48,510 nucleotides of DNA from Methanobacteriota archaeon (GTDB lineage: Archaea > Halobacteriota > Methanosarcinia > Methanosarcinales > Methanosarcinaceae): assembly GCA_016841625.1 (NCBI GenBank), contig JAENYU010000019.1, positions 1 to 48,510 of the forward strand, in the 5' to 3' direction. The notes beneath the pieces are model-generated. The model was not told the DNA's origin and did no database searches. It saw only the letters and a program-made list of their open reading frames with translations. Each line of letters starts with the position of its first letter. The first letter of the stretch is position 1. Positions 31,219 to 39,769 of this stretch are shown here, in pieces. The position numbers were made by a program, and so were the translations under genes.

Positions 31219-32115
31219 ATGGCCGAATCCAGAAAATTTCCCTCTGACCTGTTCCTTGTAATAGGTCTTGTGGTTCTGACCGACATATTCGTACTCGTGC
31301 CTCCGCTCAGTGAGAGTTTTATCCGAACAGCGTTAGGGCTCCCAATTGTGCTTTTCCTGCCAGGGTATGCCCTGATAGCGGCTCTCTTTCCCTCAAAAGA
31401 AGACCTTGATGGAATTGAGAGGGCTGCACTCTCTTTTGGGCTGAGCATTGCGGTAGTGCCGCTGATAGGGCTTGGCCTGAATTACACCTCCTGGGGGATA
31501 AGACTCATTCCTGTACTTGTGAGCATTTCCGCATTTACCCTGGCAATGTGTGGGGTAGCTTACTACAGGAGGAGGCAGTTGCCTGAGGACAAAAGGTTTG
31601 AAGTCCCCTTCAAAGCTTCCGCGCTTGCCCTGAAGGCTGAAATTCTGGAAAAACCTGAAACAAAAGTCGACAAAATTCTCACGGTCATCCTTATATTTTC
31701 CATCCTTATTTCGGTGGGAACCCTGATCTACGTGATTGTTACACCTAAAGAAGGGGAGCATTTCACGGAGTTCTATATCCTGGGACCCGAGGGTATGGCT
31801 GACAACTACCCGACCATATATACGCCAGGAGACAGCGGAACCGTTATAGTCGGGGTCGTAAACCACGAGTATCGGACTGTGAACTATACCATGGACATCC
31901 GGCTCGAGAACGTCTCCCAGCCCCTCCCTGAAAACCTGAAACAGATCCGGCTCGGGCACAACATGACCTGGGAAGAGCCTGTAACCATAACCCCGACCTT
32001 CGAAGGCACGGACATGAAACTCGAATTCCTGCTCTACAACGACACTGGAAAAAGCATGCCCTACAGGGACCTGCACCTATGGATCAATGTAAGCGAGACG
32101 GCAAAGGAGGTATGA
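31219..32115 (+). CDS. DUF1616 membrane protein (copy 1)
   Basis: A 298-residue protein of the archaeal DUF1616 family, function not established. The N-terminal half holds about four hydrophobic helices (VIGLVVLTDIFVLVPPL, LPIVLFLPGYALIAALF, FGLSIAVVPLIGLGLNYTSW, and one near residue 165). The C-terminal half is an extracellular beta-rich domain starting TPKEGEHFTEFYILGPEG and ending HLWINVSE. It has an agaggt ribosome site. Its TGA at 32113-32115 overlaps an ATG at 32112 and lies five bases before the CPBP gene's preferred ATG 32118, so the two are coupled. A close paralogue with the same partner is at 37950. Confidence 0.88.
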   Translation: MAESRKFPSDLFLVIGLVVLTDIFVLVPPLSESFIRTALGLPIVLFLPGYALIAALFPSKEDLDGIERAALSFGLSIAVVPLIGLGLNYTSWGIRLIPVLVSISAFTLAMCGVAYYRRRQLPEDKRFEVPFKASALALKAEILEKPETKVDKILTVILIFSILISVGTLIYVIVTPKEGEHFTEFYILGPEGMADNYPTIYTPGDSGTVIVGVVNHEYRTVNYTMDIRLENVSQPLPENLKQIRLGHNMTWEEPVTITPTFEGTDMKLEFLLYNDTGKSMPYRDLHLWINVSETAKEV

Positions 32116-32117
32116 AT

Positions 32118-33038
32118 ATGGAAATGACGGACCTTCCAACCGGGAATTAGGAGAAAGAAAGCTTTACAGAAGCCGGGAATCCGAATCTTACCGTTATTGT
32201 TGAAGAAAAGGAAGAGCCCCTCAAAACAGAAAGATTGGAAACTCACGGGCTGGAAAGTCCTGATTTCAGGAATAAGGTAATTTACGTGGGGATACCTATC
32301 CTGGCCATCGCCTTTGCGGAAATGTTGATTTATTCCGGAAGGGTAAAAGAAGCCATATGGGTGCACACAGCCATCCTGATTGGCCTTTCCCTTTCCATAA
32401 CATTCATGAAAAACGAAGAGGTTTACAAAACATACCAGGCCCTTTTGCTCCTTCCGATCCTTCGTCTGGTCAACCTCTCGATGCCTATATTTTTTGACAT
32501 AACCCTTTACTCTTTCGTTCTCATCTATGCCCCCCTTGCATTCCCTGTAACGATTGCTGCTGTCCACCAGCATTTGACACGCGGAGAGGTGGGGATAACT
32601 TTCAAGAATATATGGCTGTATCTTCCTTTCTCTATACTGTTAGGCTTTGGGCTGGGAATGGGAGAATACCTGACAATCCGGACAGACTACCTTATCCCCG
32701 ACCTTTCCTTCCTGAACATCTTAAAACTAACACTTGTAATGGTTTTCTTTGTGGGGCTTGTCGAAGAGTTAATATTCAGGGCGATGCTGCAAACAAGCCT
32801 TAGCAAACTCTTCGGGGCGTGGACGGGGATACTGCTTTCAAGCATGCTTTTTGGCTTCATGCACTCCGGTTACGGGACTTCCTACGAAGTGTTATACACT
32901 TTTTTTGTGGGGGCCATCATAGGATACATGTTCTACAAAACCCAAAGCCTGCCGTTCGTCACAATGGTTCACGGCTTCGTAAATGTATTTTTGTTCGGGT
33001 TCATCCCCCATCTGGGTCCCGGCCTCGGAATCCTGTGA
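32118..33038 (+). CDS. CPBP-family intramembrane protease with in-frame UAG
   Basis: A predicted intramembrane glutamic/metal-type protease (CAAX/Abi family). Core motifs are EELIFRAMLQ, FGFMHSGYG and HGFVNVFLF, the conserved EExxxR, FxxxH and HxxxN boxes, within about eight membrane helices. The best start is ATG 32118, with the Shine-Dalgarno aaggagg (32104-32110) seven bases upstream. From there codon 11 is TAG (32148-32150), after which the same frame runs open to TGA 33036-33038. The only start after the TAG that keeps the whole membrane part is TTG 32235, with no ribosome site. Starting at 32118 gives about 59 residues before PILAIAFAE, against 61 in the paralogue at 38849. Reading UAG as pyrrolysine is likely if this is Methanosarcina; a nonsense mutation is the alternative. 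Confidence 0.8.
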
Positions 33039-33104: not shown

Positions 33105-33245
33105 CCGCGGGACAGAAAGGAGATTAAAAAGGAAGACGAACTGGAAGAACCTGAAGCCGTGTTCAAAAAAGAAACGGGGGAATGGAAATGCCCAACATTG
33201 CAGAAAACCCATCCAGTTAACCACCAGGTTACAGGATTTCTGTAA
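33105..33245 (+). pseudogene. Possible short coding remnant
   Basis: A plus-strand frame with charged, protein-like content (KKEDELEEPEAVFKKETGEW, then KCPTLQKTHPVNHQVTGFL) ends at TAA 33243. It has no convincing start and overlaps the end of the minus-strand small protein. It may be the tail of a lost gene; confidence is low. Confidence 0.25.
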
Positions 33246-33426
33246 TTTTGAAGACAACAGTTGCACTGAAAGTTATCAACAGTGACACAATCCCCATTTT
33301 TAAGGAACTATCCAGAGCTTTTCCCCAGAGCTTCGATGCTGAAAGGACCTCTTTGAACGAGAGAAGCGTAATCAATCCGATTACGGCTATGAACCCGAAT
33401 TCAGGAAGTCCCGGAGCAGTCAGCAT
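33229..33426 (-). CDS. Small two-helix membrane protein, start uncertain
   Basis: The minus-strand frame encodes 65 residues from ATG 33426 with two hydrophobic helices (GFIAVIGLITLLSF and MGIVSLLITFSATVVFKI). The frame stays open upstream of that ATG, giving a Ser/Ala repeat (SSSAVSSSAISSSA, made by a 15-base DNA repeat at about 33437-33480), back to an in-frame TAG at 33505-33507, preceded by a hydrophobic stretch that could start at GTG 33543. A longer protein reading through the TAG is possible but weaker than the other cases. No family was recognised. Confidence 0.45.
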   Translation of the reverse strand: MLTAPGLPEFGFIAVIGLITLLSFKEVLSASKLWGKALDSSLKMGIVSLLITFSATVVFKITEIL

Positions 33427-33730
33427 AGAGAGAGCGCTGGATGAAATTGCGCTCGATGAGACCGCACTGGATGAAATTATACTTGTTAGCCTGTTAATTC
33501 CCCCCTACAAGCTTATTCCCGTTTTTATTATAAAAATGAGCACAATAATATAAAAAACTGCTCCAACCCCATGACAGCATTTCGAAAGACTGCAGGTATT
33601 TACTCCCCATTTATAAACAATGAAGAGCATAGTCTTTCTATTGATACGGAAAATAAGAAATATTCCGGAATCGGGGGAAAGAATAATCCAGGGAGAAGAG
33701 GAAAGAATAACCCAGGGAAAAGGAGAAAGA

Positions 33731-37949: not shown

Positions 37950-38846
37950 ATGGCCGGAAATAAACGATTTCTTTCGGACCTGATGCTGGTGGCAGGTCTT
38001 GTACTCTTAACAGACATCTTCGTGCTTACACCGGGACTTAACGGGAGTTTCATCAGGGTGGTGCTGGGGATACCCATGGTGCTCTTTTTGCCGGGGTATG
38101 CGCTGGTAGCGGCGCTCTTTCCTGGAAAAGAAGACCTGGACTGGATAGAAAGGGTTGCCCTTTCCGTCGGGTTGAGCATTGCAGTCGTGCCGATGATAGG
38201 GCTTGGCCTGAATTACACCTCCTGGGGGATAAGGCTCTTGCCAATAATCGTGAGTCTTTCGGTATTTACCCTCCTGATGTGCGGGGCTGCATACTACCGA
38301 AGGCGGAAGCTTCCCGGGGAAGAGGTTCTTGCGATGTCTTTCAGGGCTGTGGTCTTCGACCTGAAGGACGAAATCCTGAAAAAACCGGAAACAAAAGTCG
38401 AGAAAATTCTCATGGTCCTCATGGTCCTTTCTATTCTCGCGTCGGTTGGGACCCTTGCCTATGCGGCTGTGGCGCCGAAAGAAGGCGAGCACTTTACGGA
38501 GTTTTATATACTGGGGCCCGGGGGCATGGCAAGCAACTACCCGACAGAGTATGTGCTCGGCGAAAACGGGACTGTTATTGTGGGGGTCGTAAACCACGAG
38601 TATCAGACCGTAAACTATGCGATGGACGTCCGGCTTGAGAACGGGTCCTTAGATCTTCCCAAAAACATGAAATACATCAACCTGGCCCATAACGAGACCT
38701 GGGAAGAAACTCTCAAAATAACTCCTCCTTTCGAAGGTACGGAAATGAAACTTGAGTTCCTGCTCTTCAACGAAAGCGAAAAGAAAGTTCCACACCGGGA
38801 ACTGCATCTCTGGATAAACGTAAGCGAAAAGGCTGATGAGGTCTGA
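37950..38846 (+). CDS. DUF1616 membrane protein (copy 2)
   Basis: A 298-residue paralogue of the protein at 31219, the same length and alignable end to end. Helices are VAGLVLLTDIFVLTPGL, LGIPMVLFLPGYALVAALF, VGLSIAVVPMIGLGLNYTSW and one near residue 165; the external domain begins APKEGEHFTEFYILGPGG. One DNA stretch of more than 30 bases around the GLGLNYTSWGIR codons is identical between copies while flanks differ. The start ATG 37950 follows agaggttga. Its stop (38844-38846) is two bases before the second CPBP protease ATG, repeating the copy 1 arrangement. Confidence 0.88.
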   Translation: MAGNKRFLSDLMLVAGLVLLTDIFVLTPGLNGSFIRVVLGIPMVLFLPGYALVAALFPGKEDLDWIERVALSVGLSIAVVPMIGLGLNYTSWGIRLLPIIVSLSVFTLLMCGAAYYRRRKLPGEEVLAMSFRAVVFDLKDEILKKPETKVEKILMVLMVLSILASVGTLAYAAVAPKEGEHFTEFYILGPGGMASNYPTEYVLGENGTVIVGVVNHEYQTVNYAMDVRLENGSLDLPKNMKYINLAHNETWEETLKITPPFEGTEMKLEFLLFNESEKKVPHRELHLWINVSEKADEV

Positions 38847-38848
38847 AG

Positions 38849-39769
38849 ATGGCAAGCCCGGAAATGTTAGACGAGACTTATGAACATGAAAGGAACCCTG
38901 CATCTTTTCTGGACGAAATTGAAAAATTCGAAAGGAAAAGGGAGTCGGGGAGAAAAATGATTGAAAATAGCGAAATCCGGGGGGAAACCGAAAATGCCTT
39001 ACCCCGGCACAGGAGAGTTCTTGAAGCAATCCCGATACTAATTATCGCTTTTGCCGAACTGATGATCTACGAGGGAAACCTGCATGAAGCCACAATGGCG
39101 CATACCCTGCTCCTGATAACCCTGGTACTGTGCATCGCACTCATCAAGGACCGTGAAATACAGCGGACCTACCAGATCCTGATGCTTCTTCCGGTCCTCC
39201 GCCTGGTCAACTTCGCAACACCTGTCTTTTTTGAAGACACGCTCTACTCCCTGGCTTTCATCTACGCCCCTATGGCAATCCCGGCAGCAATTATCGCCGT
39301 GCACCAGGAGTTTACCCTTAAACAGATGGGCCTGACTTTGAGGAGACTCTGGCTCTTCCTACCTTTAGCCGTCTTCATGGGCGCGATCCTTGGCTACGGA
39401 GAGTACACCATACTCCAGGTAAGTGCAAGAGATGCCCTTATCCCGGACCTGAGCCTTACAAGCCTCCTGAGTCTCGCAGTCGTGATGATCTTCTTCGTCG
39501 GGCTAATCGAAGAACTCATCTTCAGAGGTTTTCTCCAGACAAGGCTAGAAACGTTCCTTGGCCCCGCCGCAGGCATCCTTGCTGCAAGTCTCCTCTTCGG
39601 ACTCATGCATGCAGGCTATGGCAGCCTCATTGAGATCTTCTACGCCACCTTCGTGGGAGTTTTCATAGGCCAGCTCTACTACAGGACAGGGAACCTTAGC
39701 CTTGCGGTCCTTATCCACGGCTTTATGAACATCTTCGTTTTCGGGATTTTTCCCCTGATGGGACTGTAA
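38849..39769 (+). CDS. CPBP-family intramembrane protease (copy 2)
   Basis: A 306-residue paralogue of the 32118 protein, here without any in-frame UAG. The N-terminal 60 residues are polar and charged (DETYEHERNPASFLDEIEKF); about eight helices follow. Motifs EELIFRGFLQ, FGLMHAGYG and HGFMNIFVF match the protease family's conserved glutamates and histidines. The intact N-terminus is the yardstick for the start of copy 1. It is co-transcribed with DUF1616 copy 2. The substrates are unknown; secreted proteins between the two modules are candidates by position only. Confidence 0.88.
   Translation: MASPEMLDETYEHERNPASFLDEIEKFERKRESGRKMIENSEIRGETENALPRHRRVLEAIPILIIAFAELMIYEGNLHEATMAHTLLLITLVLCIALIKDREIQRTYQILMLLPVLRLVNFATPVFFEDTLYSLAFIYAPMAIPAAIIAVHQEFTLKQMGLTLRRLWLFLPLAVFMGAILGYGEYTILQVSARDALIPDLSLTSLLSLAVVMIFFVGLIEELIFRGFLQTRLETFLGPAAGILAASLLFGLMHAGYGSLIEIFYATFVGVFIGQLYYRTGNLSLAVLIHGFMNIFVFGIFPLMGL

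Follow-up and report, generated by a model that had tools for sequence, protein, structure and literature searches.

In the methylamine methyltransferases MtmB, MtbB and MttB the in-frame UAG codon is conserved and pyrrolysine (Pyl) lies in the active site. Pyl has also been physically observed in Thg1 (tRNA-His guanylyltransferase) of Methanosarcina acetivorans, where it is not essential for activity (Heinemann et al. 2009, reviewed in PMC2933860), and a transposase family with a conserved in-frame amber codon is present in M. acetivorans and M. mazei (PMC2933860). Whether Pyl is inserted is believed to depend on how Pyl-tRNA competes with the release factor (PMC9499178; PMC8211752).

Here we describe a gene for a CPBP/Rce1-like intramembrane protease that contains one in-frame TAG, in a 48,510-nucleotide stretch of DNA (the window; G000:C7:1–48510) that is part of a 3.76-Mb genome of the Methanosarcinaceae. 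The closest likeness is to Thg1 of M. acetivorans, since in both the UAG is in a non-methyltransferase gene, is found in one species only, has a sense codon in relatives at the same position, and is accompanied by pyl genes in the genome; the protease thus appears to represent the Thg1 situation in another protein. The two differ in that Pyl was observed in Thg1 whereas we infer it for the protease, and in the site, which in the protease, a membrane protein, is codon 11 and falls in a poorly ordered tail. With MtmB, MtbB and MttB the protease shares an in-frame UAG in the same genome, with one pyl system for both, although its UAG occurs in this genome only and does not fall in the catalytic core. 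The amber-codon transposases are likewise non-methyltransferase genes with an in-frame UAG, but they are mobile and the UAG is conserved among copies, whereas for the protease it occurs in a single chromosomal gene, whose collinear orthologue lacks it.

The protease gene and its neighbourhood

The protease gene (positions 32118–33038, plus strand; 306 codons, with TGA at 33036–33038) lies downstream of a gene coding for a DUF1616 membrane protein (31219–32115, plus strand; Pfam PF07760, E = 3e-109), and the TGA of the latter (32113–32115) is separated by only 2 nt from the protease ATG at 32118. A Shine-Dalgarno sequence of seven bases, AAGGAGG (32104–32110, plus strand), is read from the sequence at a spacing of 7 to this ATG. 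Ten sense codons follow, then the TAG as codon 11 (32148–32150, plus strand), and then an open frame through the protease, an arrangement proposed in an earlier note on this DNA and borne out by direct reading and translation. With the TAG taken as a residue the translation begins MEMTDLPTGN-UAG-EKESF and is 306 residues long. It contains a match to PF02517 (Pfam, E = 1.5e-19) and all three protease motifs are intact, namely EExxxR (residues 216–221), FxxxH (245–249) and HxxxN (285–289), which together place the product among the CPBP/Rce1-like proteins. Codon 11 is approximately 200 residues ahead of the catalytic motifs, within an N-terminal tail (codons 1–53; 32118–32276, plus strand) that is polar, poorly ordered and fast-evolving. 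Besides the TAG there is no lesion across the 306 codons.

There is a second DUF1616–CPBP pair in the window. It consists of a paralogous upstream DUF1616 gene (37950–38846, plus strand; assigned to the family because it matches the first pair) and a paralogous CPBP protease gene (38849–39769, plus strand; identified by Pfam, translation and tree) which lacks a UAG, as had been claimed, and has a frame that is open across 306 codons. The region that holds the two pairs (31219–33038 and 37950–39769) also contains glycosyltransferase and sugar-nucleotide genes, and such pairs recur in relatives. We also note a frame for a small hydrophobic protein on the minus strand at about 33240–33500, which is conserved in the orthologous genome G081 (L105) and has no Pfam match.

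Orthologues and the coding nature of the tail

A search with the single protein first gave no relative, and a search with an alignment then identified 28 loci, including one in Methanosarcina sp. MSH10X1 that has the same CPBP sequence as genome G092; CPBP homologues are numerous across the 112 genomes of the family. The closest homologue (L020, in G081 of genus g13; the window genome is in genus g1) aligns without gaps over residues 1–305 at 70% identity, and has the identical DUF1616-TGA-AT-ATG junction, the same ATG and Shine-Dalgarno sequence, and 306 codons. The window gene groups with those of G081, G104 and G092 in the tree (support 95/90) and the surrounding 2.76 kb is collinear with G081, which together argue that the window gene and L020 are orthologous. 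Codon 11 in L020 is AAG (Lys), within the context AAT AAG GAA versus AAT TAG GAG in the window gene, and the two codons are separated by one A-to-T difference. A second example may be L021 (G104), which has a shorter N-terminus with a segment, LPAKNKEN, that lines up by eye with LPAENKEN in L020 and LPTGN-UAG-EK in the window gene, giving AAG again, and to which we attach little weight as MAFFT aligns it otherwise. The homologues in the same genus (G001, G002 and G003) sit on other branches of the tree, and those most similar in sequence lack a TAG and have N-termini unrelated to that of the window gene. In L020 itself the third CPBP motif has a change of His to Gln (residues 284–289, VQGFIN, versus VHGFVN in the window gene) and this copy may be catalytically altered.

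The sequence of the TAG site was sought in the 112 family genomes and is present only in the window genome. No conserved UAG was found in the relatives, and among the leading matches the window gene alone has a TAG within its body; a TAG flagged in the G060 match is the end of that gene itself, and the remaining stops flagged inside matches are TAA or TGA. This is accordingly not an active-site UAG conserved among orthologues, being private, replaced by AAG in L020, and located in the tail.

Several observations indicate that the frame is coding on both sides of the UAG. Codons 12–39, between the TAG and the first start codon beyond it, score +11.2 bits as coding in-frame, with the other tested frames negative, and codons 2–39 share 13 of 37 residues with L020 (p about 2e-5 by permutation). 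The dN/dS ratio between the window gene and L020 is about 0.33 in codons 1–39 (a noisy value) and about 0.18 in the core, and taken together with the coding score and the identity to L020, this suggests that the N-terminal tail is probably translated but loosely constrained. Identity to L020 is 35% in tail codons 1–53 versus 76% in the core, and residues 1–49 are without predicted structure by AlphaFold, in a weak model (shallow alignment, mean pLDDT 53.7) used only for the disorder of these residues. The selection seen in this pair of genes may mostly predate the TAG.

These data bear on whether the protease is made without pyrrolysine, the UAG acting as a terminator and translation re-initiating at TTG 32235 or GTG 32286. 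UAG does also serve as a stop in this genome, the predicted protease helices are largely intact from the downstream starts, and there is a 4-base Shine-Dalgarno match at GTG 32286. However, TTG 32235 has no such match, L020 has CAG and GTA at the two positions, neither of which is a start, codons 12–39 still look coding, and it is ATG 32118 that has the strong site; we therefore consider re-initiation unlikely. The TTG (32235–32237, plus strand; the first start codon past the TAG) was also considered as the native start of the gene and rejected, on its missing Shine-Dalgarno sequence and the CAG in L020. The earlier note had suggested comparing N-termini, and no inspected homologue starts at this position.

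An alternative explanation is that the TAG represents the first inactivating mutation in a decaying gene, which is consistent with its restriction to this lineage and with a second DUF1616–CPBP pair that could make the first dispensable. This is very unlikely, as no further lesion has accumulated, the catalytic motifs are intact, the start site and Shine-Dalgarno sequence are retained, and the core has the identity and low dN/dS given above.

Reading of UAG in the host genome

The earlier note made pyrrolysine contingent on pyl genes in the genome, and a complete cluster is present. Contig C36 carries pylT (anticodon CUA), pylS (413 bits), pylB, pylC and pylD in a single cluster, the last three identified by ORF sequences and gene order. 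Each of the two mtmB genes has one in-frame TAG, as do mtbB and mttB on contig C14, and together with the complete pylTSBCD set these indicate that UAG is a sense codon in this host. In 1.12 Mb of the genome, sampled in stretches, 500 long ORFs end in TGA (280), TAA (212) or TAG (8, about 2%). TAG does end some genes (e.g. pylB) and there is one full-length aRF1 in the genome, so that part of the protease product may terminate at the UAG. The terminal TAG of pylB (L019:8818–9915) is followed by approximately 14 codons to the next stop if the UAG is read, and a TAG at the end of pylB has been reported for other Methanosarcinaceae (PMC2933860). PylS is long, with 550 codons from a TTG (L019:7067–8719, contig C36), and a long Ala/Ser/Pro-rich linker joins its N-terminal and catalytic parts.

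We scanned the 1.12 Mb for stops flanked on either side by coding-like sequence in the same frame, applying the same test to TAA and TGA. The TAG cases are this protease, mtbB and mttB, making the protease the only non-methyltransferase gene, in a scan that is not independent of its target, as thresholds were loosened until the protease was kept (a stricter version lost it). Nor is the scan exhaustive, having missed the two mtmB genes in the sample despite their TAG codons. In most cases with TAA or TGA a start codon comes soon after the stop, and an ordinary gene start is a plausible explanation. One cupredoxin-like gene (L146:14838–15359, contig C43; PF13473, E = 2.6e-11 when X stands for the stop) has an in-frame TAA after 77 codons, within an acidic linker, and may represent a nonsense mutation, two genes, or an error. 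It suggests a low rate of nonsense changes or errors, and the protease TAG by itself is thus no proof of decoding; the case for decoding derives from the code of the host, from the orthologue, and from the rest of the gene being intact.

A sequencing or assembly error, with AAG or another sense codon as the true codon, must be weighed here. The TAG is known from one assembly only, it departs from the orthologue by a single base, and its site sequence occurs in no other family genome. The assembly is nonetheless of high quality (99.68% complete, 63 contigs), and only two candidate non-methyltransferase nonsense codons (the protease TAG and the L146 TAA) stood out in the 1.12 Mb; the error rate is probably low as a consequence, and we regard an error at this codon as quite unlikely.

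Probable replacement of lysine by pyrrolysine

The explanation we favour, and consider likely, is that this is a working DUF1616-linked CPBP protease in which the AAG (Lys) of codon 11 became TAG in the lineage leading to this genome, as a near-neutral change, and is partly read as Pyl. The AAG in the closest orthologue points to this direction of change and favours pyrrolysine as the substitute for lysine. Of the residues possible at codon 11, pyrrolysine has the best support; we infer its incorporation, efficiency and neutrality. The proposal that a membrane protease contains pyrrolysine is partly supported, by the pyl genes and the orthologous lysine codon, with a site that is unconserved and private. 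Confined as it is to this genome, the TAG has the look of a neutral substitution of recent date, with no dedicated function for pyrrolysine.

A single A-to-T change would have replaced Lys11 with Pyl11. Ribosomes would begin at ATG 32118 and reach the UAG after ten codons, where Pyl-tRNA(Pyl) would compete with aRF1; the fraction reading through would yield the full 306-residue protease, with Pyl in the poorly ordered tail as a residue without a special role, and the terminating fraction would yield a 10-residue peptide. The change would be near-neutral, its tolerance explained by the sense meaning of UAG in the cell and by the loose constraint on the tail. No PYLIS-like stem-loop was found downstream of the UAG (fold z = +1.13, no Rfam match), and such a structure is not strictly needed for decoding, since an amber codon introduced into uidA is read through at 20–30% in M. 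acetivorans (PMC2933860).

It is highly improbable that the UAG instead acts as a translational gate, with full-length protease made only when Pyl-tRNA is abundant and the pyrrolysine (methylamine) status of the cell setting the protease level. Early termination would cost only ten codons, and for a bacterium, Acetohalobium arabaticum, decoding of UAG as Pyl is reported to be confined to growth on trimethylamine (PMC8211752), although no result here favours a gate tied to methylamine supply. If decoding does follow that supply, a physiological link becomes testable.

Gene callers would place the start of this protease at the wrong codon. As a near-neutral replacement of lysine by pyrrolysine, the gene would represent a clean single-base case (AAG to TAG, with synteny and start kept) of a Lys codon captured by the pyrrolysine code outside of methylamine metabolism. 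The host genome is nearly without TAG as a stop, and examples of this sort are required if one is to gauge how readily UAG drifts towards a sense meaning.
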